Virus record (IMG/VR): IMGVR_UViG_3300046513_000248
Location: 1 to 28,002 of that record
Reading direction: 5' to 3' (one strand)
Length of the DNA stretch: 28,002 bases
Origin: a virus
The stretch's first letter is position 1. Every line of letters starts with the position of its first letter. The notes below the pieces were generated by a model. It saw only the letters and a list, made by a program, of their open reading frames with translations, made no database searches and was not told the origin of the DNA. Position numbers and translations under genes: made by a program. Shown here piece after piece: positions 4,200 to 25,083 of this stretch.

Positions 4200-4474
4200 G
4201 TGTTCCCCTTGCTGGTTATAGGTACTGCCCGCTTTCCTGCTTCTCTCTGTGCTGCCGCCTGCGCAACCCCGTTTCTCTGATGGTGGGCAGACGTAGCCTT
4301 CCCTGACGCCTGCCTTTACGCACTTCTCCGACGGAGCCGCACGACGCGCCAGCCTTTCGTGTCATGGGTGCTGGCTTCGCCGCCCATCGCTCCTGTTTCA
4401 GACACTTCCCACAGTAGGAGCCTCACCGCACACCGCTGTCGTCTTCTGACCCGACCAGTGCGCTGCCTGTGCGG
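4200..4474. other. Unusual 275-base gap inside the otherwise overlapping early operon
   Basis: All other genes between 1516 and 7878 overlap or nearly touch, so this gap stands out. On the minus strand it holds a 23-codon frame (ATG 4387, stop 4316-4318) with AGGAG close upstream and, overlapping its end, a 35-codon GTG frame rich in Arg and Gln. Neither resembles a known protein. No terminator with a T-run and no convincing promoter was found. It could hold a leader, a small RNA or decayed sequence. Confidence 0.3.
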
Positions 4475-5365
4475 CTACCGGATCACCGGCTTCGCCGCGC
4501 GCATGATCGCCATGCGCAGCCGTCGCGGCCCCTCTTCTCCCCACTCCAGCAGCGCGTCGGCCCAGTCCGAACCGACGATGTTCTCGGGGTAGGCCACGCC
4601 GCAGCCGAGCACCTCGGCCGCCTTGGTGGCCTTCTCGACGCCGGGGTTGAAGCCACGGCGTTCGCAGGTCTCCCAGTCGTTGTCGCCGCACACCACGGCC
4701 AGGCCGGCCACGGTCGAGCGCGAAACCACCTCGACCAGGTTGCCGGCGTCCAGGCAGATCTCGATCTGGCTGTTGGCCAGGGTCTGAAACAGCGCCAGGC
4801 CGGTGGCGAACCCTTCGGCGAAGCCGTGCAGGACGGCGCCGGGGCGGGTCAGCAGCAGCGAGACGCCCTTGGTCGAGCAGCCGGTGTAGTTGCGCTTGGT
4901 GCCGTCCGGCCAGATGCGCTGCACGGTGGCGAGGCGCCCGTCCCTGAACAGCGGCCAGACCAGCACCTCGCCATCGAGGCGCAGCTTGTCGCCGCCGAGC
5001 ATGGACAGGCCCTTGCGGGCCAGGTACGGGTGGCCGTCGTACAGGCGCGGCAGCGACTGGTAGTAGCGGACCATGCCCTGGTAGGCGCGCGCGGCCTTCT
5101 CGCGCTCGCGCTGGCGGCGCTGCGCGTTGTCGCGCTCGATGCGCTTCCTCTCGATCGGCGAGACCGGGGTGTCGTCGGTCCACTCGATCCACTCCTCGTC
5201 GACCGCGTAGTCCTTGTAGTAGCCGCGGCGGCCGTCGACACGCAACATGTAGGCGCCGTTCTTCTTCTTCGGCTTGTCGGCCGTGGCGCAGCGATACCAC
5301 TTGCCGTTCGGGGCGACCTCGCGCGGCAGGAAGCCGGCGGCCAGCAGGGTGTTGTAGAAGTCCAT
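4475..5365 (-). CDS. Toprim-domain DNA primase
   Basis: The 296-residue protein has a basic N-terminal region (residues 1-60), a charged linker rich in Arg/Glu (70-95) and a C-terminal Toprim domain. The Toprim signature residues are visible: E184 in FAEGFATGLAL, D228 and D230 in CGDND, and D267 in GSDWADAL, with an NPGVEKATKAAE helix between them. These bind the metals used in primer synthesis. This is the short phage and plasmid type, lacking the DnaG zinc finger in an obvious form. It is coupled to the helicase gene by a TGATG overlap, suggesting the pair act together at the phage replication fork. The family is secure; the primase activity is inferred. Confidence 0.85.
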   Translation of the reverse strand: MDFYNTLLAAGFLPREVAPNGKWYRCATADKPKKKNGAYMLRVDGRRGYYKDYAVDEEWIEWTDDTPVSPIERKRIERDNAQRRQREREKAARAYQGMVRYYQSLPRLYDGHPYLARKGLSMLGGDKLRLDGEVLVWPLFRDGRLATVQRIWPDGTKRNYTGCSTKGVSLLLTRPGAVLHGFAEGFATGLALFQTLANSQIEICLDAGNLVEVVSRSTVAGLAVVCGDNDWETCERRGFNPGVEKATKAAEVLGCGVAYPENIVGSDWADALLEWGEEGPRRLRMAIMRAAKPVIR

Positions 5366-7181: not shown

Positions 7182-7606
7182 GGCAGCACCTCCAGCAGGT
7201 TGAACGCGTACAGGCGCAGGTATTCCTGGGTGCCGTACAGCTTCTCGAAACGGGCCTTGTTCGGGTGCACGGCCACCAGGCTCTTGTCGTTGCCGGTGCC
7301 CTGCTGGTGATGGCCCGCGCACAAGGGAAGGACGTTGCGGTGGCAACCTTCCTTGGTGCGGCCGTCGATGTGGTGGATCGAGACGTGGTTCGAGGTCGGC
7401 AGGCCGGCCACCAGGCAGGCGACACAGCCGACCTCGTTGGCCAGGCGGTCCCACAAGACCTTTTCCTCGGGCGTGACGGCGCGCTGGCGGGTTTTCAGGC
7501 CCTCCTTCCGGGCGAACGTGACGCGCGGGTACGGCGCCTTGGCCGGCGTGTCGCCGGGCGCCCTGGCCTTGAAGCCGGTGCGTTTCATCGGCGTCGTGCG
7601 CTTCAT
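7178..7606 (-). CDS. Ref-like (RecA-dependent) HNH nuclease
   Basis: The 142-residue protein has a basic N-terminus (MKRTTPMKRTGFKAR) and a compact His/Cys-rich core: C61/C64, HVSIHHIDGRTK (74-85), C88/H89 and NVLPLCAGHHQ (91-101). This matches the Ref family of phage P1, HNH-type endonucleases that cut DNA at RecA filaments and enhance recombination. The closing HPNKARFEKLYG segment (114-125) is also a family feature. The start at 7606 overlaps the YdaS-like gene in an ATGA junction. A RecA-linked nuclease directly after the lytic regulator would act early in lytic growth. Assignment is by motif recall. Confidence 0.75.
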   Translation of the reverse strand: MKRTTPMKRTGFKARAPGDTPAKAPYPRVTFARKEGLKTRQRAVTPEEKVLWDRLANEVGCVACLVAGLPTSNHVSIHHIDGRTKEGCHRNVLPLCAGHHQQGTGNDKSLVAVHPNKARFEKLYGTQEYLRLYAFNLLEVLP

Positions 7607-7878
7607 GCGCGGGCGCCCTTCCTGATGACGCGCACCCACTCGAATTCCTCGCGCAGCTGCTCGCACATGACCTTGCCGCGCGTGAGGCGTTCGATCTGCG
7701 GGCAGCGGCGCGGCGGCACGCCGGTCTCGTTGGTGTACCACTGCCGCACGGCCTGGGGCGACACGCCCAGCAGTCGGGCCAGCTCGGACTGCGAGCCGAC
7801 GTGCTCGATGGCGCGGTCGAGGTGCCTGCGTTCGCGGCGCAGGCGGGCGGCGAGCATCCGTGCGGAAAGTTTTTTCAT
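7603..7878 (-). CDS. YdaS/Cro-like lytic regulator
   Basis: The 91-residue protein contains a helix-turn-helix with the YdaS pattern, GSQSELARLLGVSPQAVRQW (28-47), followed by the typical GVPPRRCPQIERLTRGKV segment and an FEW motif near residues 78-80. YdaS proteins are Cro-like regulators of lambdoid phages and are sometimes called antitoxins. It is divergent from the repressor and first in the leftward operon, exactly the place of cro. The predicted promoter puts the transcript start at the A of the ATG, so the mRNA may be leaderless; there is no Shine-Dalgarno sequence. It probably binds the operators at 7889-7944. Confidence 0.8.
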   Translation of the reverse strand: MKKLSARMLAARLRRERRHLDRAIEHVGSQSELARLLGVSPQAVRQWYTNETGVPPRRCPQIERLTRGKVMCEQLREEFEWVRVIRKGARA

Positions 7879-7884
7879 GGGTGC

Positions 7885-7912
7885 ATTTTACAAGTCCCAC
7901 TTGAAACTTCAA
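7885..7912 (-). promoter_or_regulatory. Leftward lytic promoter (PR-like)
   Basis: On the minus strand TTGAAG (7912-7907) and TAAAAT (7890-7885) lie 16 bases apart; the -10 matches five of six consensus bases. Operator 1 (7889-7905) fills the spacer and operator 2 covers the -35, so bound repressor would block it. The expected start point falls at about 7878, the first base of the YdaS-like gene. Confidence 0.65.
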
Positions 7913-7944
7913 GTAGAACTTTAATGGAACAAGCGCCACTTTAA
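7889..7944. promoter_or_regulatory. Three repressor operators in the divergent switch region
   Basis: Three 17-bp dyads share the form of two 7-bp half-sites around a 3-base spacer. Operator 1 is TACAAGTCCCACTTGAA (7889-7905), operator 2 TTCAAGTAGAACTTTAA (7908-7924), and operator 3, weaker, AACAAGCGCCACTTTAA (7928-7944). Their centres are 19 and 20 bases apart, about two helical turns, as in lambda OR. They lie between the YdaS-like gene and the repressor gene. The same dyad recurs at 8822-8857. Operator identity is inferred from symmetry, recurrence and position. Confidence 0.75.
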
Positions 7945-7999
7945 TGAGCGCTGTGTTATGTTGCTACTCGTGAATACTTCCCAATGACGGAGATTGGCC

Positions 8000-8626
8000 A
8001 TGTCTACCATCGGTGCACGCATCAAACAGAGACGCGAAGAACTCAAGATGAGCCGCAATGACCTCGCCATAGCCTGTGGCGTGACACCGCAGGCGGTCCA
8101 TGCATGGGAGGAAAAAGGGGCGATACCGGCGTACCATCGGTTAAAGAAAATTGCCGAGGTACTAGAAACAACAGTTGAATGGTTGTCAGCTGGAATTAGT
8201 GTTAATGTACCAACTGGCGCTAATTACACACTGGTCCCTCTACTGAGGACAGACAATGAAGGAGGCGGCGACGTGCAATACCACGACGAGGTCGGAGAAC
8301 TCAAGGACGACCGCAACAGCTTCGCCTATCGCCGCGACTTCCTCGAACAGCTCGGTGTGAAACCCGAGTGGTGCCGGGTGGTCCGCGGCGACACCAGTAT
8401 GATGCTCGGCGACCAGCTCCTGGTCGACCTGCAGCAGCATGAAATCGAGAACGGCCGCGTCTATGTGCTCAAATCCCCGAGCGGTCCGATCGTGCGCCGC
8501 CTGTTCGTGCAGCTCGACCAGAAGGTGCGCGTACTGGCCGATCGCCCCGACATCCCGGAGCAGATCGTGCCTCCCGAGGCGGTCCACGTGCTGGGTAGAG
8601 TGGTGGCGTTCCAGGGCACCCTGTAG
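8000..8626 (+). CDS. CI-like prophage repressor with degenerate S24 protease domain
   Basis: The 208-residue protein has an N-terminal XRE helix-turn-helix (about residues 17-45, SRNDLAIACGVTPQAVHAWE) and a C-terminal LexA/S24-like fold (about 105-208). In the fold, the Ser region reads RGDTSMMLGDQLLVD (129-143) instead of the usual GDSM, and the place of the catalytic Lys reads VRR (165-167). No clear Ala-Gly or Cys-Gly cleavage site is seen in the linker. The likely result is a repressor that dimerises but does not self-cleave. The ATG at 8000 is chosen because GGAG lies 7 bases upstream; a TTG at 7994 is unlikely. The first third is more AT-rich than its neighbours. A terminator follows. 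Confidence 0.85.
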   Translation: MSTIGARIKQRREELKMSRNDLAIACGVTPQAVHAWEEKGAIPAYHRLKKIAEVLETTVEWLSAGISVNVPTGANYTLVPLLRTDNEGGGDVQYHDEVGELKDDRNSFAYRRDFLEQLGVKPEWCRVVRGDTSMMLGDQLLVDLQQHEIENGRVYVLKSPSGPIVRRLFVQLDQKVRVLADRPDIPEQIVPPEAVHVLGRVVAFQGTL

Positions 8627-8822: not shown

Positions 8823-8857
8823 TAAAGTTTCCCTTGTAAATTAAAGTTGGACTTTAA
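8822..8857. promoter_or_regulatory. Two repressor operators at the rightward operon
   Basis: TTAAAGTTGGACTTTAA (8841-8857) is a perfect 7-3-7 dyad. A weaker copy, TTAAAGTTTCCCTTGTA (8822-8838), precedes it with centres 19 bases apart, the same spacing as in the switch region. Both share half-sites with the operators at 7889-7944. They overlap the -10 and initial transcribed region of the promoter above. Confidence 0.7.
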
Positions 8858-10940: not shown

Positions 10941-11378
10941 ATGGCATCTGTCAACAAAGTCATCATCGTCGGCAACCTCGGCCGCGACCCGGAAATCCGC
11001 TACATGCCCAGCGGCGATGCGATCGCCAACGTTGCGGTGGCCACCTCGTACAAGTCGAAGGACAAGGCCACCGGCGAAGCCAAGGAGCTGACGGAATGGC
11101 ACCGCATCTCCTTCTTCGGCAAGCTGGCCGAGATCGTCGGCCAGTACCTCAAAAAGGGTTCGAGCGTGTACGTCGAGGGTCGCCTGCAGACCCGCAAGTA
11201 CACGGACAAGGACGGTGTCGAGAAGTACGCCACCGACATCATCGCCGAAAACATGCAGATGCTGGGCGGCCGCAGCGACGGCGCCGGTGCGGGCGGTGGC
11301 GGCTACCAGGCCCCGCCGGCGCGCCCGGCCGCGCGCCCGGCCCAGCCGGACCTGGAATCGTCGGACGTGCCGTTCTGA
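10941..11378 (+). CDS. ssb: Single-stranded DNA-binding protein
   Basis: The 145-residue protein is a standard bacterial SSB: an OB fold from residue 1 to about 110 ([20 protein letters not shown] at the start, [13 protein letters not shown] and [12 protein letters not shown] inside), a Gly/Pro/Ala linker and an acidic tip ending SSDVPF. The tip normally recruits replication and repair enzymes; here it is DVPF rather than DIPF, with fewer acidic residues. AAAGGA precedes the ATG by 8-10 bases. A phage copy next to exonuclease and NinB-type genes fits recombination-dependent replication. Function is secure. Confidence 0.95.
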
Positions 11379-11389
11379 TGGAGGCCGCG

Positions 11390-11965
11390 ATGACCCGCCA
11401 ACGCAACCGCACCGAGCAATACCTGCACGAACGCATGCAGGCCATCTTTGCCGCCAACCCCGACCCGATCATGTTCGAGGTCGCCCTGGCCTACCTGATC
11501 GAGGAAGTCGCCACCGCCTGCGGCCTGTTCGTCGGCGAGATCAGGTCGGCCGAGAAGTTCTCGACCTGGGTCGGCTGCTTCCTCGACAAGGTGGTCGACG
11601 TGCGCGCCGGCAAGCCGCAGGAGGTTCGCATCGGCCCGGACCCGGTGCCGAAGAACGACCTGCCGCCGGCCCCGCCGCAGGACGAGCAGGCGGAAGCGCC
11701 GCCGGCCACCGCCCCCGAGCAGGCGCTGCCGATCAAACCCTGGGTGCGCGGCCTGAACGCCGGCCCGCTGTACATGACCGGCAAGCAGATCATGCAGCAC
11801 CGCAAGCGCCTGCGCATGACCCAGGACGCGCTCGGAGAAAAGTTCGACATGACCGGCACCTGCATCAGCCACTGGGAAACCGGCCGCACCCTGCCCAGCG
11901 CGCAGCAGTACGCCGACCTGCGCGCCATCTTCGGTCTCCCGCCGGAGGGTCCGATTGATGACTGA
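11390..11965 (+). CDS. XRE-type helix-turn-helix protein with variable N-terminal domain
   Basis: The 191-residue protein has a helical N-terminal domain (residues 1-75), a Pro/Ala/Glu linker (85-110) and a C-terminal XRE helix-turn-helix reading KRLRMTQDALGEKFDMTGTC then ISHWETGRTLPS. Placing the DNA-binding domain at the C-terminus is less common for phage regulators. The ATG at 11390 is chosen for GGAGG 6 bases upstream; an ATG at 11378 overlapping the ssb stop would add four residues. It probably regulates a later step of the operon, but no target site is evident. Confidence 0.75.
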   Translation: MTRQRNRTEQYLHERMQAIFAANPDPIMFEVALAYLIEEVATACGLFVGEIRSAEKFSTWVGCFLDKVVDVRAGKPQEVRIGPDPVPKNDLPPAPPQDEQAEAPPATAPEQALPIKPWVRGLNAGPLYMTGKQIMQHRKRLRMTQDALGEKFDMTGTCISHWETGRTLPSAQQYADLRAIFGLPPEGPIDD

Positions 11966-14531: not shown

Positions 14532-14554
14532 GGGTGGACATAGTATGTCCACCC
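14532..14554. repeat. parS-like palindrome, copy 1
   Basis: The sequence is a perfect palindrome with 11-bp arms around one central base; its 19-bp core is GTGGACATAGTATGTCCAC (14534-14552). An identical 23-bp copy is at 15400-15422 and a copy with the other central base is at 16609-16635. Recurrence only around the parAB genes makes it the probable ParB-binding centromere. Confidence 0.75.
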
Positions 14555-15399: not shown

Positions 15400-15422
15400 G
15401 GGTGGACATAGTATGTCCACCC
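15400..15422. repeat. parS-like palindrome, copy 2
   Basis: Identical over 23 bp to copy 1: 11-bp arms around a central G, core GTGGACATAGTATGTCCAC (15402-15420). It lies 10 bases after the stop of the gene at 14727 and about 125 bases before parA, upstream of the parA promoter, so ParB bound here could also influence parAB expression. Confidence 0.8.
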
Positions 15423-15442: not shown

Positions 15443-15474
15443 GCGTACAAACCGCGTACAAACCGCGTACAAAA
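15443..15474. repeat. Three tandem GCGTACAAACC repeats
   Basis: Copies lie at 15443-15453, 15454-15464 and 15465-15474 (the last ends AA), with a fourth partial GCGTA just after. The 11-bp period matches one helical turn. They sit between palindrome copy 2 and the parA promoter and could bind ParA, ParB or another regulator. Confidence 0.65.
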
Positions 15475-15487
15475 TGCGTATTGCGTT

Positions 15488-16339: not shown

Positions 16340-17250
16340 GCAGCAAGCTGAACAAGGAACTGGAAGCCGCGCTGGTGAACCGCCCGCGCCCGAACCTCAA
16401 GAATGACGTGGCTTCCACCATCATCGGGCTGGCCGGCCGCGAGTCGAGCGCGCCGGTCATGCTGCCGCTGTCCCAGCTGGTGCGCTCGCGCTTCCAGTCG
16501 CGCGGCAAGCGCGACGAGGAATACATGGAGAACCTGGTCGAGAGCATCCGCCAGGAGGGCCTGCTCGACCCGGTCATCGTCCGGCCCCTGCCGGTCGAGC
16601 AGGCCGAGCAGAGTGGACATACTATGTCCACTCTGCCGCTGTACGAACTGGTCGCGGGCCACCACCGCGTCGACGCTTTCAAGATCCTGGGCCGGAACGA
16701 GATCCCGGCGACCGTTCGGGTCCTGACCGACGCCGAGGCAGCCCGCGCGCTGACCAGCGAGAACACGACGCGCAAGGGCCTGGGCGACTGGGAGCTGTAC
16801 AAGCACATGCAGATGCTCTACGCGGTCGGCGCCGTGACCAGCCAGCGCACCGCGGCACGCGTGCTGAACGTCTCGCGTGCCGTCGTCCAGGCGCTGGAGG
16901 CCTTCGCGCTGCTGCCCCAGAGCGTTCACGAGCTGCTCGACGATCATCCCGGCCTGGTCGGCTACAACCTGGCCGATGACCTGCGCCCCTACTGTGCGGA
17001 GCACGCGCTGCTGGTGTTCGACGCCCTGTGCCTGCTGGCCAAGAAAAAGCTGACGCAGGCGGCCGTGCCGCGCTGGATCGAGGACAAGGCGACCCCCCAG
17101 GCCAGGAAGCCGAGGAAGGAGCTGGAGCTGGGCAACGGCGTGCGCCTGATCGTCAACGGCGCCGGCGCGCGCGTGTCCGGCAAGCTCGACTACGACCGCC
17201 TGCACAGGCTGATCGAGGCGAACCTGCCCGCGCTGCTGCTGGCCGACTGA
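16336..17250 (+). CDS. parB: ParB centromere-binding protein carrying a parS-like site in its own coding sequence
   Basis: The 304-residue protein has a ParB/Srx-type N-terminal domain with LVESIRQEGLLDPVIVRPLP (67-86) and VAGHHR (106-111, the CTP-binding GxxR-type motif), followed by a helix-turn-helix (about 169-190, SQRTAARVLNVSRAVVQ) and a C-terminal dimerisation region. Between PVIVRPLP and YELVAGHHR is an extra loop, VEQAEQSGHTMSTLP (87-101). The DNA coding for this loop holds a 27-bp palindrome (16609-16635), the third parS-like copy. It overlaps parA by 4 bases (ATGA). Family certain; the loop is the odd feature. Confidence 0.95.
   Translation: MSSKLNKELEAALVNRPRPNLKNDVASTIIGLAGRESSAPVMLPLSQLVRSRFQSRGKRDEEYMENLVESIRQEGLLDPVIVRPLPVEQAEQSGHTMSTLPLYELVAGHHRVDAFKILGRNEIPATVRVLTDAEAARALTSENTTRKGLGDWELYKHMQMLYAVGAVTSQRTAARVLNVSRAVVQALEAFALLPQSVHELLDDHPGLVGYNLADDLRPYCAEHALLVFDALCLLAKKKLTQAAVPRWIEDKATPQARKPRKELELGNGVRLIVNGAGARVSGKLDYDRLHRLIEANLPALLLAD
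16609..16635. repeat. parS-like palindrome, copy 3, inside parB
   Basis: A perfect palindrome with 13-bp arms around a central C. The inner 19 bp, GTGGACATACTATGTCCAC (16613-16631), equal the core of copies 1 and 2 except for the centre. It encodes residues 92-100 of ParB and falls between conserved blocks, so it is tolerated as a loop. Confidence 0.75.
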
Positions 17251-21749: not shown

Positions 21750-22769
21750 GTGGAAGATCCGCACTACAAACGACAACTCACCCTTTTCAAGAACTCGGCC
21801 AAAGAGGAAATGAAGAAGGTGGCGCCGACCAAGATGTCAGTCTGGCCGAACAAGTACCGGGCCGTCGCCAACGAGATCGCCCGTTGCTCACTGTTTTCAT
21901 GCCGCAATCCGAAGACGCCGCGGCACCATTACACCAACGAGCGCCTGTTCACGCTCGGCAAATCGGTCATGACCTACAGCGGCGAGGAACTGCGCAGCAA
22001 TGACCAGGACATCTGGCTGGCCCTCGCGCACGCGGTGCGCGACTACCCGGGCGAGAACATCGTCCTGCACATCACCAGTTCGGAGATCTGCCGGCTGGTG
22101 GGCTGGCGCATCGGCCAGGACTACTACACCGAGATCTACAAGTCGATCCAGCGGATGAAGGCGACCGCGCTGACGGTATTCTCGCCGCGCCTCAAGAAAG
22201 CCAGGGCCTACGAGCAGGCACGGCGCACCGGCGCGTCCGACGAGGAACTGGCCAGCCTGTACGCGGCCATGATGCGCACCGACAGCGACGAGGCGGGCGA
22301 GGACGAGGCGGTGTCGGGGATCATGATGTCGATGATTGGCAGCAGGGTCCTGTTCGATGCCGAAGGCGTCGAGGTGATCGACGACATCCCGCAGGGCAAC
22401 CTGAAATGGACGATCCCGCTCGACGCCGAGATCGTGGCCCTGTTCGCCTGGTCGTACCTGACGCTGGTCCCATACGAGCGGCGGCGCAAGCTGCCGCGTG
22501 GCGCGGCGCGCAACCTGCAGGCCTACTTCATGAGCCACCAGCAGCCGTTTCCGGTCAAGATGTCGTCGCTGGCCAAGATGCTGAACCTGGACGGCGAGCT
22601 GCGCGAGAACAAGCGCACCATCGAGAGCGCCCTCAACCAGCTGCAGAAGGAGGGCGTGCTCGAAAGCGTCAAGATCGACAAGGGCAGGGGTGACGTGCTG
22701 GTCCACGTGGTCCGCGCGCCCGAACCGCCCGACGACGAGGGCGAAACCACTACAGCCAGCCCACAATGA
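21750..22769 (+). CDS. trfA: TrfA-family plasmid replication initiator
   Basis: The 339-residue protein starts from GTG at 21750 with CAGGAAG upstream; an ATG at 21810 would give a shorter form, as in RK2 where trfA has two starts. The TrfA pattern is clear: MSVWPNKYRAVANEIARCSL (from about residue 28), FSCRNPKTPRHHYTNERLFT, then SVMTYSGEELRSNDQDIW. Two winged-helix domains are expected, with the second near FPVKMSSLAKMLNLDGELRE. The protein would bind the iterons that begin inside its own last codons (22750) and open the origin with DnaA. Assignment is strong. Confidence 0.9.
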   Translation: MEDPHYKRQLTLFKNSAKEEMKKVAPTKMSVWPNKYRAVANEIARCSLFSCRNPKTPRHHYTNERLFTLGKSVMTYSGEELRSNDQDIWLALAHAVRDYPGENIVLHITSSEICRLVGWRIGQDYYTEIYKSIQRMKATALTVFSPRLKKARAYEQARRTGASDEELASLYAAMMRTDSDEAGEDEAVSGIMMSMIGSRVLFDAEGVEVIDDIPQGNLKWTIPLDAEIVALFAWSYLTLVPYERRRKLPRGAARNLQAYFMSHQQPFPVKMSSLAKMLNLDGELRENKRTIESALNQLQKEGVLESVKIDKGRGDVLVHVVRAPEPPDDEGETTTASPQ

Positions 22770-22903
22770 GCTACAACCAGCCCACAATGCACTACAGCCA
22801 GCCCACAATCGGGGCAAAACGCACTACAGCCAGCCCACAATGCACTACAGCCAGCCCACGTTTTACTCAAACTGGCCCACATTTCGCTACAGCCAGCCCA
22901 CAG
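22750..22903. repeat. Plasmid origin iterons (seven copies, 21-bp period)
   Basis: Copies of CTACAGCCAGCCCACAAT, full or with a few changes, begin at 22750, 22771, 22792, 22824, 22845, 22866 (degenerate, CTCAAACTGGCCCACAT) and 22887. Steps are 21 bases except one of 32 (21+11). All point the same way. The first copy overlaps the end of the initiator gene. DnaA boxes and an AT-rich stretch follow, so this is the initiator-binding part of the vegetative origin. Confidence 0.9.
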
Positions 22904-22907
22904 GGGG

Positions 22908-22954
22908 TGTGGAAAACCGCCAGTGTTATCAACAACTTGCGACACTTGTCCACA
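22908..22954. promoter_or_regulatory. Cluster of DnaA boxes
   Basis: TTTTCCACA on the minus strand (22916-22908), TTATCAACA (22926-22934) and TTGTCCACA (22946-22954). The first fits the TTWTNCACA consensus and the other two differ from TTATCCACA by one base. They lie directly after the iterons, as in other iteron origins, and would recruit host DnaA. Confidence 0.75.
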
Positions 22955-23030
22955 CCCGCTAACCATTCTCTGAACCCTTATTTAATAAATAGACCCGGGC
23001 AATGCCAGCAAACCCCGAGAAGCGCTATGC

Positions 23031-23092
23031 AATGTGGGTCAGTTGTAGCAAGTTGCACTTGTAAAGCGCGCTTGCTACAAATGACACACATT
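23031..23092. repeat. Inverted iteron-like arms at the origin
   Basis: The left arm (23031-23052) and right arm (23071-23092) are inverted repeats of 22 bases with 20 matches, separated by 18 bases. Read in iteron direction each arm resembles an iteron: CTACAACTGACCCACATT (minus strand, 23048-23031) and CTACAAATGACACACATT (23075-23092), sharing CTACA and CACA blocks with the array at 22750. An inverted pair of initiator sites is the usual operator for initiator dimers in iteron plasmids. Here it would face the large gene at 23329. Confidence 0.6.
23047..23063. promoter_or_regulatory. Candidate prophage-repressor operator inside the inverted arms
   Basis: AGCAAGTTGCACTTGTA has the 7-3-7 geometry of the switch-region operators, and its inner CAAGTNNNACTTG equals that of operator 1 (7891-7903). 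It is 14 kb away from the switch region. Single occurrence, so the call is tentative. Confidence 0.4.
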
Positions 23093-23112: not shown

Positions 23113-23128
23113 GTAGGAGTGTTCCTAC
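23113..23128. repeat. Short palindrome downstream of the origin
   Basis: GTAGGA (23113-23118) and TCCTAC (23123-23128) are perfect inverted 6-mers around a 4-base loop. It lies about 200 bases upstream of the large gene at 23329 and may be a regulator site or a small hairpin. Confidence 0.4.
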
Positions 23129-23328
23129 AAATTATCACAAATTCTCACGTTGTCATTTTGTAATCATATTTTTATGCTTTCAAATCAGGCGCTTGCAAAT
23201 GTGTATTGATCCAGCAACGCGCGCAAATGTGAAACCCGGCATTTAACGCGCGATTGCATTTGACCGCTTCTTGTTTAAAGACAAGTCAGGTACGATAGAT
23301 AACAAGAAGAAACCAAACACTGACAACC

Positions 23329-25083
23329 ATGAGCAAACGCATTTGGACCGACAGCGAACTTGACGCCCTTGCCCGTGACATCCTGTTCAAGTATCCGGGG
23401 CGTGGCCTTGACCGCGTGACCCAGCCGCACCAGATCGACCTGAACGACCTCGAAGTGACGCCGCTGATCCAGAACGCCATGCCGCCGCACCGCCAGGCCC
23501 TGCGCCCCAAGCTGAACCGCCTCAAACGCGACCTGGTGCCGGCCCTGATCCGCGTGACAGGCCGGGGTGGCCTTACCGTCGAGGCCGCCGCCGCTGTCGC
23601 CCACCTGCAGCCAGTACCGGAGAAGCCCGCCATGACTTCCGATCCGGTTCCCCGGCCCGACCCCCTGGCTGTCCCCGAACAGACGCCTGTGGAGGCTGTG
23701 GTCGCGCCACAGGCCCCTGCGCTACCCGCGCCGGAACCGGCCGCAGTGGCGGCCGCGGTCGCCGATACGGAAGGGGACGAGGATGACGCGACAGACGAGA
23801 CAGAAGCCCCAGGCGGCCGGCGCAAGGGGAACAAGCAACGCCAGTCGAAGATCCGCTGGAGCGACGACGAATGGCGGTTCTGCGCGCTGGCCCTGCACAC
23901 GATGTGCCCGGACCTCAACCTGGTCGAGGCCAAGACGATGGACGGCGTCACGCTGCGCGAGCTGAACATGGCCGCCTCGATGATGGAGCCGGGCCGGCAA
24001 CGCCACTTCAAGTGGCTCAAGGGACCCGCGGCCCGCCTGATGCAGGAGTACGAGCGCGCCCGGCGCGACCGCGATCCGTTTTACTACGGCAACCCGGTCA
24101 AGGTCGAGGCCCCCGTCGAATCGGTGCAGGTAGCAGCCCTGGAGCCTGTGCCGGAGCCGACCCCGCCACTACCGCCACCGGCACCTGCCGCGCTGGCCGG
24201 GAACACGCCCGACCCCGCGCCGGTGGTGCCGAGCGTGGCCACGCCGAAGGAAAAGCCGGCCGGCGCCACCTTCTCGCGGGTCGGCGAGCAGCGGATCTTC
24301 TGGAGCACCGCCGAATGGGTCGAGATCGCACTGGAGATCGACCGCCTTCACCCGCACTCCAAGTACATCGAGCGCAACACCACCGGGGCGCTGACGGTGC
24401 AGGACATCATGCAGGCCCAGCGCGTGCTGCCGCAGGAGCGGCGCCGCCAGCTGCGCACCGCGTTGATGGACAAGCTGCGCGTATGCCTGCTGGACGCCTT
24501 CAAGGAGGTCAAGCGCATGCGCGCCGAGGCCTCCAAGGCCCAGCATGCCCAGGCCGTGCAAGCGTTCGAGGAACGCCGCGCCGCGGCGGCCGAGCCACCC
24601 CCGAATCCCTGGGAAACGGCACTACGCCCGCTGGTCGAGCTGGTCGTGCGCGAACTGGGCGCGCAGCTGGTCCCGATGATCGTGCAGGCGCTGGCCAGCA
24701 GCCAGGCCCAGGCCGCCGGCGCGCCGCCGGCGCACGTCTCCAACGTCGCGTCACTGCCGGGCAGCATCGGACGGGCACCGGAGCCGAAGCCCAAGAAGAT
24801 GCGCATCGGCATGGTCAGCGGCCGCAGCACCTACGCCGACGACCTGGACAAGACCTTCCCCGAAGTCAAGTTCGAGTACATCGAATCCCACAACACACGC
24901 ATGGTCGACAGCGTCAAGAACTGCGACCGCGTGATCCTGCTGACCCGCTTCACCTCGCACCCGATGCAGGACCGCCTCAAGAAGGCGGTCGGCGACCGCC
25001 TGATCCTGGTCAACGGCAGCGTCACCGACGCCAAGCGGGTCATCCATGGCCTGCTCAACACACCCGAACGAAAAACCGCATGA
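23329..25083 (+). CDS. Large unknown protein with three W-x2-E repeats and a C-terminal domain shared with the partition-locus protein
   Basis: The 584-residue protein has three related segments of about 70 residues: RIWTDSELDALARDIL (from 4), IRWSDDEWRFCALALH (from 175) and RIFWSTAEWVEIALEI (from 322). Each shows W-(S/T)-x2-E, an Ala-rich helix, a Pro or Leu turn and a last helix with an Arg-rich (P/Q)xxRxx stretch, recalling Myb/SANT-like DNA-binding folds. Pro/Ala-rich linkers separate them. The C-terminal domain (about 491-584, MRIGMVSGRSTYADDLDK to VNGSVTDAKRVIH) matches that of the protein at 14727. The gene lies directly after the origin. A DNA-binding or replication-control role is possible; the family is unknown to me. 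Confidence 0.8.
   Translation: MSKRIWTDSELDALARDILFKYPGRGLDRVTQPHQIDLNDLEVTPLIQNAMPPHRQALRPKLNRLKRDLVPALIRVTGRGGLTVEAAAAVAHLQPVPEKPAMTSDPVPRPDPLAVPEQTPVEAVVAPQAPALPAPEPAAVAAAVADTEGDEDDATDETEAPGGRRKGNKQRQSKIRWSDDEWRFCALALHTMCPDLNLVEAKTMDGVTLRELNMAASMMEPGRQRHFKWLKGPAARLMQEYERARRDRDPFYYGNPVKVEAPVESVQVAALEPVPEPTPPLPPPAPAALAGNTPDPAPVVPSVATPKEKPAGATFSRVGEQRIFWSTAEWVEIALEIDRLHPHSKYIERNTTGALTVQDIMQAQRVLPQERRRQLRTALMDKLRVCLLDAFKEVKRMRAEASKAQHAQAVQAFEERRAAAAEPPPNPWETALRPLVELVVRELGAQLVPMIVQALASSQAQAAGAPPAHVSNVASLPGSIGRAPEPKPKKMRIGMVSGRSTYADDLDKTFPEVKFEYIESHNTRMVDSVKNCDRVILLTRFTSHPMQDRLKKAVGDRLILVNGSVTDAKRVIHGLLNTPERKTA

Follow-up and report, generated by a model that had tools for sequence, protein, structure and literature searches.

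Replication and partition functions

The window analysed here, the whole stretch of 28,002 bases of IMG/VR virus record IMGVR_UViG_3300046513_000248 (G000 among the compared contigs), encodes on its plus strand a TrfA-family replication initiator of 339 residues (rep, 21750-22769; PF07042 TrfA, E=1.9e-30). This protein is 44% identical to TrfA of a Herbaspirillum huttiense plasmid and, among the matches listed, 29% identical to IncP-type TrfA. The 3' end of rep falls inside the start of an array of seven plus-strand iterons (22750-22902), identified by a repeat search and an iteron matrix, with the core CTACAGCCAGCCCACA and spacings of 21, 21, 32, 21, 21 and 21. The array is followed on the same strand by a DnaA box, TTATCAACA (22926-22934), which is kept in the aligned origin regions, and by a DnaA-box-like sequence, TTGTCCACA (22946-22954), which reads TTATCCACA in more distant relatives, and then by an AT-rich stretch that is the probable melting region (22976-22993). 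Further downstream lie, in this order, the element at 23031-23092 that is the subject of this analysis, a dyad of the form GTAGGA-N4-TCCTAC (23113-23128) and a plus-strand gene at 23329-25083. With a TrfA-family initiator, and with direct-repeat iterons adjoining DnaA boxes and an AT-rich region, the locus has the composition of a TrfA-type iteron replicon.

Two of these downstream features are conserved in their own right. The stem of the GTAGGA-N4-TCCTAC dyad is near-invariant in seven aligned origin regions, and the two TCTCAC-like repeats on its 3' side (onward to about 23150), spaced about 10-12 bp apart, are kept in all seven despite diverging flanks. The gene at 23329-25083 adjoins all these phage-plasmid origins and contains, as judged by eye, three repeated W-containing modules; no convincing match to its product was found in Pfam, PHROG or NCBIfam.

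Profile matches identify ParA and ParB genes in the window, together with phage replication and head genes, and the related contig G001 encodes a terminase and major head proteins. The ends of the G001 contig are near-identical (5.3 kb shared at 99.9%), and from its sequence the G001-type replicon is probably a circular phage-plasmid of about 99 kb. The combination of virion genes, plasmid replication and partition on one circular element is that of a phage-plasmid. Around and inside parA and parB, three copies of a 23-bp palindrome, GGGTGGACATAGTATGTCCACCC, could be identified (14532-14554, 15400-15422 and 16611-16633, the third inside the parB gene), which are probable parS centromere sites. 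In addition, 11-bp direct repeats, GCGTACAAACC, of which two copies are exact and one is a variant, lie immediately 5' of parA (15443-15480) and may possibly constitute a parA operator.

The hosts of these large phage-plasmids are probably Betaproteobacteria. A Betaproteobacteria-1 RNA (RF02932, 94 bits) at 4344-4465 on the minus strand hints at the host group and at a phage-carried RNA; it was the only Rfam match and lies far from the 23031-23092 element, and an RNA element at the latter was rejected. No DNA relatives of the origin were found in PLSDB, no relatives of Rep among INPHARED phages, and none in a first scan of host genomes; a second host-genome scan yielded one Herbaspirillum contig, which has neither CI nor the dyads of the 23031-23092 element.

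The immunity region

A CI-like repressor with a helix-turn-helix and an S24 domain is encoded on the plus strand at 7994-8626 (HTH_3, 9e-12; Peptidase_S24, 4e-7; phrog_4 repressor, 1e-26), divergently from a Cro/YdaS-like regulator on the minus strand at 7603-7878 (P22_Cro, 2.4e-14; YdaS, 9e-25). Operators of the type AAGY-N3-RCTT are found in two clusters, i.e. three in OR (7892-7902, 7911-7921 and 7931-7941) and two in OL (8825-8835 and 8844-8854), and OR1 sits inside promoter-like hexamers of cro. Divergent CI and Cro genes with several related dyads between them are characteristic of lambda-like immunity regions, and the recognition-helix region is conserved among the CI homologues.

The S24 domain of this CI, and of its homologues in eight other contigs, has an Arg-Arg pair in the motif VRRL (ARRL in G004), at a position where LexA has its catalytic lysine in VKRL. 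The CI of G006 also lacks the S24 serine. Because Arg-Arg replaces the LexA catalytic lysine, and the serine is absent in G006 as well, the repressor is probably not self-cleaving. The CB repressor of N15/phiKO2 likewise lacks the residues of self-cleaving repressors (PMC4997575).

An inverted pair of iteron-like arms with operator-like dyads

The element at 23031-23092 begins 261 bp past the rep stop codon and stops 236 bp short of the next gene. It consists of two inverted arms of 22 nt, a left arm at 23031-23052 on the minus strand (core 23033-23048) and a right arm at 23071-23092 on the plus strand (core 23075-23090), which are complementary at 20 positions (91%) and have 18 nt between them. 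Simulating the 28-kb window 60 times with an order-1 Markov model gave no inverted repeat as good as this, with 22-nt arms, 20 or more matches and a spacer of no more than 40. Scored on the iteron matrix of the window itself, the 16-mers of both arms exceed shuffled sequences (left, 0 of 2000 shuffles; right, p=0.0025). An earlier sequence-only reading of this DNA, in which such a pair of arms with 20 matches and a resemblance to the origin iterons had been described, is confirmed on both points. The same reading had regarded the pair as the usual form of an initiator autoregulation site, and this is not supported: the arms do not abut but are separated by about 40 bp, and the element is not at the rep promoter and overlaps no sigma-70-like promoter. 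An operator of the rep promoter was rejected on account of the position 3' of rep and the lack of a promoter-like match. Scans for sigma-70 promoters and terminators recorded consensus matches only, and in these no sigma-70-like promoter overlapped the element; a promoter drawn over the core by eye (TTGCAC-N17-TACAAA) is not conserved in G002 and G004.

The central core, CAAGTTGCACTTG (23049-23061), fits CAAGTNNNACTTG exactly, a fit shared in the window only by OR1 (7891-7903). The identity with prophage operator 1 that had been proposed is therefore correct, except that the distance is 15.2 kb and not 14 kb. The core was also said to lie between the arms; most of it does, but it overlaps the final 4 nt of the left arm. 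Within it is an operator-like dyad, AAGTTGCACTT (dyad 1, 23050-23060), with the N3 spacer of OR and OL, which at 15.1 bits is the window's top site outside OR/OL. This single operator-like site had been recognized, whereas a second dyad next to the right arm, AAGCGCGCTT (dyad 2, 23064-23073), had been missed. The spacer of dyad 2 (N2) is 1 bp shorter than in OR/OL, and at 13.3 bits it is the window's top N2 site. In some lineages only this shorter-spacer form of the dyad is a good match to the operators.

Covariation of arms and iterons in related contigs

Scans of viral contigs identified nine relatives (G001-G006 and G010-G012) in which a related Rep occurs together with a related CI, so that ten contigs including the window carry this combination. 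All relatives are metagenomic contigs, some of them fragments, and contig counts are not independent because several relatives are close kin; the roughly independent lines are the window/G001 replicon, G002/G004, G003/G005 and G006/G010-G012. The 118-kb contig G012 (IMGVR_UViG_3300046660_000385) contains two non-identical CI genes, each with its own operator cluster, and a second partial rep at the contig end, which suggests two related phages joined together or a tandem element.

The most informative comparison is with G002, which is 95% identical to the window over the first 14 kb, yet has a Rep that is 60% identical; judged by sequence, this is a natural replicon exchange. The iterons of G002 have the core GTGAAACTGACCCACA instead of the CTACAGCCAGCCCACA of the window, and both arms have followed (left core ATGAAACTGACCCACA, right GTGAAAATGACACACA), scoring 23.2 and 21.0 bits with the G002 iteron matrix versus 6.9 and -1.6 bits with that of the window. 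Despite the changed arms, the central core stays CAAGTccgACTTG. In G004, which has yet another iteron (GTGAAACTGACACGGT), the arms again follow, around the core CAAGTcctGCTTG. In G006 the iteron is CCGAAAACGACACACC, and matching arms are found around AAGTTGACTT, with 15.6 and 19.0 bits on its own matrix versus -4.6 and -3.8 on that of the window. A comparison of arms and iterons in relatives had been suggested by the sequence-only reading, and in these three contigs the arms do track their own iterons. Elsewhere the right arm alone is iteron-like, as calculated for G003 (right, p 0.02; left, p 0.29) and G005 (right, p 0.0015; left, p 0.42) and as seen by eye in G010-G012.

The core sequences of the window and G001 are CAAGTtgcACTTG and CAAGTtgaACTTG; together with those of G002 and G004 they show that the AAGY and RCTT half-sites are kept while the spacer bases vary among contigs. 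Loss of conservation in the core had been named in advance as an argument against its significance, but the half-sites are conserved across all ten contigs. Since the arms track their own iterons while the half-sites stay, the arms appear to be initiator sites and the core to be under a separate constraint. Conservation of arms and core by recent ancestry alone was rejected, because G002, with its 60% identical Rep, changes the arms and spacer bases and keeps the half-sites. The covariation supports the assignment of the arms as initiator-type (Rep/TrfA-like) sites, and the way in which iterons and arms covary with the type of rep also supports the predicted binding of the initiator to the iterons.

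Operator-like character of the dyads

In seven contigs (about 440 kb), exact AAGY-N2/3-RCTT sequences in AT-rich DNA (at least 50% A+T) are found only in OR, in OL and in the origin element. With a 19-bp operator matrix trained on the OR/OL sites of other lineages, the origin site outranks everything outside OR/OL in six of the seven contigs. Among N3 sites, the origin is at the top outside OR/OL in the window (15.1 bits; next non-OR/OL site, 10.1), G001 (14.4) and G002 (14.9), and in the latter two it outscores their own OR3 (12.4). The origin site of G004 scores 11.4 bits, and two non-OR/OL sites score higher, one of which is probably a third OL site. Among N2 sites, the origin dyad is the top site of the contig in G003, G005 and G006 (22.4, 23.2 and 18.9 bits), and in G010-G012, which were outside the training set, it is the top site of their 21-kb loci (19.3, 16.2 and 19.3 bits). 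At 15 bits a chance of about 2e-3 per 60 bp is expected, and at 19 bits one of about 2e-4. In G006 and G010-G012 one half-site of the second dyad is mismatched, and the scores listed for this dyad are 5-6 bits. These data support the view that the core carries the half-site vocabulary of CI/Cro operators, conserved in sequence across the ten contigs.

The main weakness of this operator reading is the N2 spacing. An operator-like N3 dyad is present at the origin in G000, G001, G002 and G004, and the best dyad has the N2 spacing in G003, G005, G006 and G010-G012; a 2-bp spacer, compared with 3 in OR/OL, should weaken the binding of a rigid dimer. OL3-like N2 sites (G004, position 4662, 17.5 bits; G001/G002, 13.0 bits) suggest that N2 and N3 spacings may both be tolerated by the same regulators, which possibly answers the objection, though only in part.

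The dyad is absent from four TrfA-type origins for which no CI of this family was detected, i.e. those of G008 and G009, which may be incomplete, and of two Herbaspirillum replicons. At the G008 and G009 origins, nothing clear was found in the way of an operator for a different repressor. In loci L035, L060, L061 and L063 (G006 and G010-G012), a weak operator-like site ending in ACTTAAAA (10-14.6 bits) lies no more than about 120 bp from the start of the homologue of the 23329-25083 gene.

A candidate composite regulatory site

On the right, exactly 1 nt separates dyad and arm core in every one of the ten contigs (the frame in G010-G012 being set by eye), and the same gap is seen on the left wherever a left arm exists (G000, G001, G002, G004 and G006), while the distance between the dyads varies from 3 nt in the window clade to about 12 nt in G006. 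Such a fixed contact would be expected of an initiator and a repressor that touch or are mutually exclusive. We propose, with slightly better than even confidence, that the element is a composite regulatory site in which initiator arms are combined with dyads read by CI/Cro, tying the activity of the origin to lysogeny. The Rep/TrfA-like initiator would bind the two inverted arms, and the phage's own CI and/or Cro would bind the two operator-like dyads between them. A bound repressor should affect initiator binding because dyads and arms abut, and could either help or hinder the initiator; origin activity and copy control would then depend on the lysogenic or lytic state. The sequence features, the covariation of arms and iterons, the conserved and nearly unique half-sites and the fixed spacing are what the data show. 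Binding by CI/Cro, competition or cooperation with Rep, and the effect on replication are what we infer from sequence, and by analogy with N15/phiKO2 the most likely sign of the effect is repression in the lysogen.

Several other explanations have to be weighed against this composite site. The dyads could be read by a different DNA-binding protein, a phage helix-turn-helix protein or a host factor, that shares the AAGY/RCTT half-site by chance. Many lineages have a spacer of 2 where OR/OL have 3, which fits this, as does the presence of other helix-turn-helix proteins in the window (e.g. 11096-11965). We nevertheless think it rather unlikely, as half-sites and flanks (ATTAAAG...CTTGTAA) are the same as in OL/OR and reach up to 23 bits when scored with a matrix derived from other lineages, origins for which this CI family was not detected lack the dyad, and the contigs have no further AT-rich site of this kind. 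CI/Cro could also bind the dyads to control the promoter of the 23329 gene, or a transcript through the origin, rather than access of the initiator. That gene begins 236 bp downstream, a promoter-like pair is present at 23150-23178, and G006 and G010-G012 have their weak operator-like site nearer to the homologous gene. The element itself has no overlapping promoter-like sequence, unlike OR1, and the fixed contact of the dyads is with the initiator arms and not with a promoter, which makes a transcriptional role distinctly unlikely.

It is very improbable that the arms form a replication-inhibiting initiator site (handcuffing or fork-block) for which the dyads merely set the spacing: every relative that carries CI has at least one iteron-like arm, and G008/G009 keep an inverted iteron without dyads, but the varying inter-dyad gap means that arm spacing is not fixed, and the dyads are kept all the same. 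Inverted iteron-like arms are typical of Rep operators in iteron plasmids, and the inverted repeat might then serve the rep promoter as its operator, with the core being a coincidence; with an element downstream of rep, a core that is conserved while the arms change and a low chance of such a core, we give hardly any credence to this classic form of autoregulation.

A more specific form of the composite site is a direct immunity gate, in which CI (or Cro) bound between the initiator sites would turn plasmid initiation down or up by a route other than transcription; we put this forward as a tentative and somewhat doubtful possibility. If true, the lysogeny switch, the copy number of the prophage and the exclusion of an incoming related phage-plasmid would be one decision taken on 60 bp. 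The natural replicon swaps, in which the operator-like core is kept, make the proposal of repressor sites beside initiator sites in the origin directly testable.

Comparison with known systems

The TrfA-oriV system of RK2/IncP has a TrfA-family initiator, iterons, DnaA boxes and an AT-rich region like the origin described here, and RK2 also carries an inverted orphan iteron; no immunity operators are known in it. The plasmids F, pPS10, R6K and pSC101 have inverted-repeat operators at the rep promoter, with two initiator half-sites close together, whereas the inverted initiator sites described here follow rep, are separated by about 40 bp and enclose two foreign dyads. In the phage-plasmid P1, C1 operators are scattered beyond the immunity region, some in front of replication functions; they have an asymmetric sequence and act on promoters (lytic replicon) rather than on initiator sites of the plasmid origin. 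The likeness lies in repressor operators outside the immunity region, which in the present case are predicted in the plasmid origin beside initiator sites.

Coupling of dormancy to replication is known for few phage-plasmids, and the best-studied cases depend on transcription of the initiator gene. For plasmid prophages, control of replication by the repressor is already known from N15 and phiKO2, but via the repA promoter: the prophage repressor CB represses repA and lowers plasmid copy number (PMC4997575, PMC4488713), and its operators overlap the repA promoter and act on transcription (PMC4488713, PMC4997575). The present family resembles N15/phiKO2 in being a plasmid prophage whose CI(CB)/Cro region is lambda-like and contains three OR sites plus additional OL sites, and in having repressor operators, here as sequence matches, at the replication module. 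It differs in its TrfA-type initiator and in a probably circular replicon (G001) with ParAB, as opposed to a hairpin-ended linear plasmid. Moreover, the sites are in the origin, between and against the initiator sites and downstream of rep, instead of on the rep promoter. This uncharacterised phage-plasmid family would offer candidate repressor sites within the origin itself, directly beside those of the initiator.
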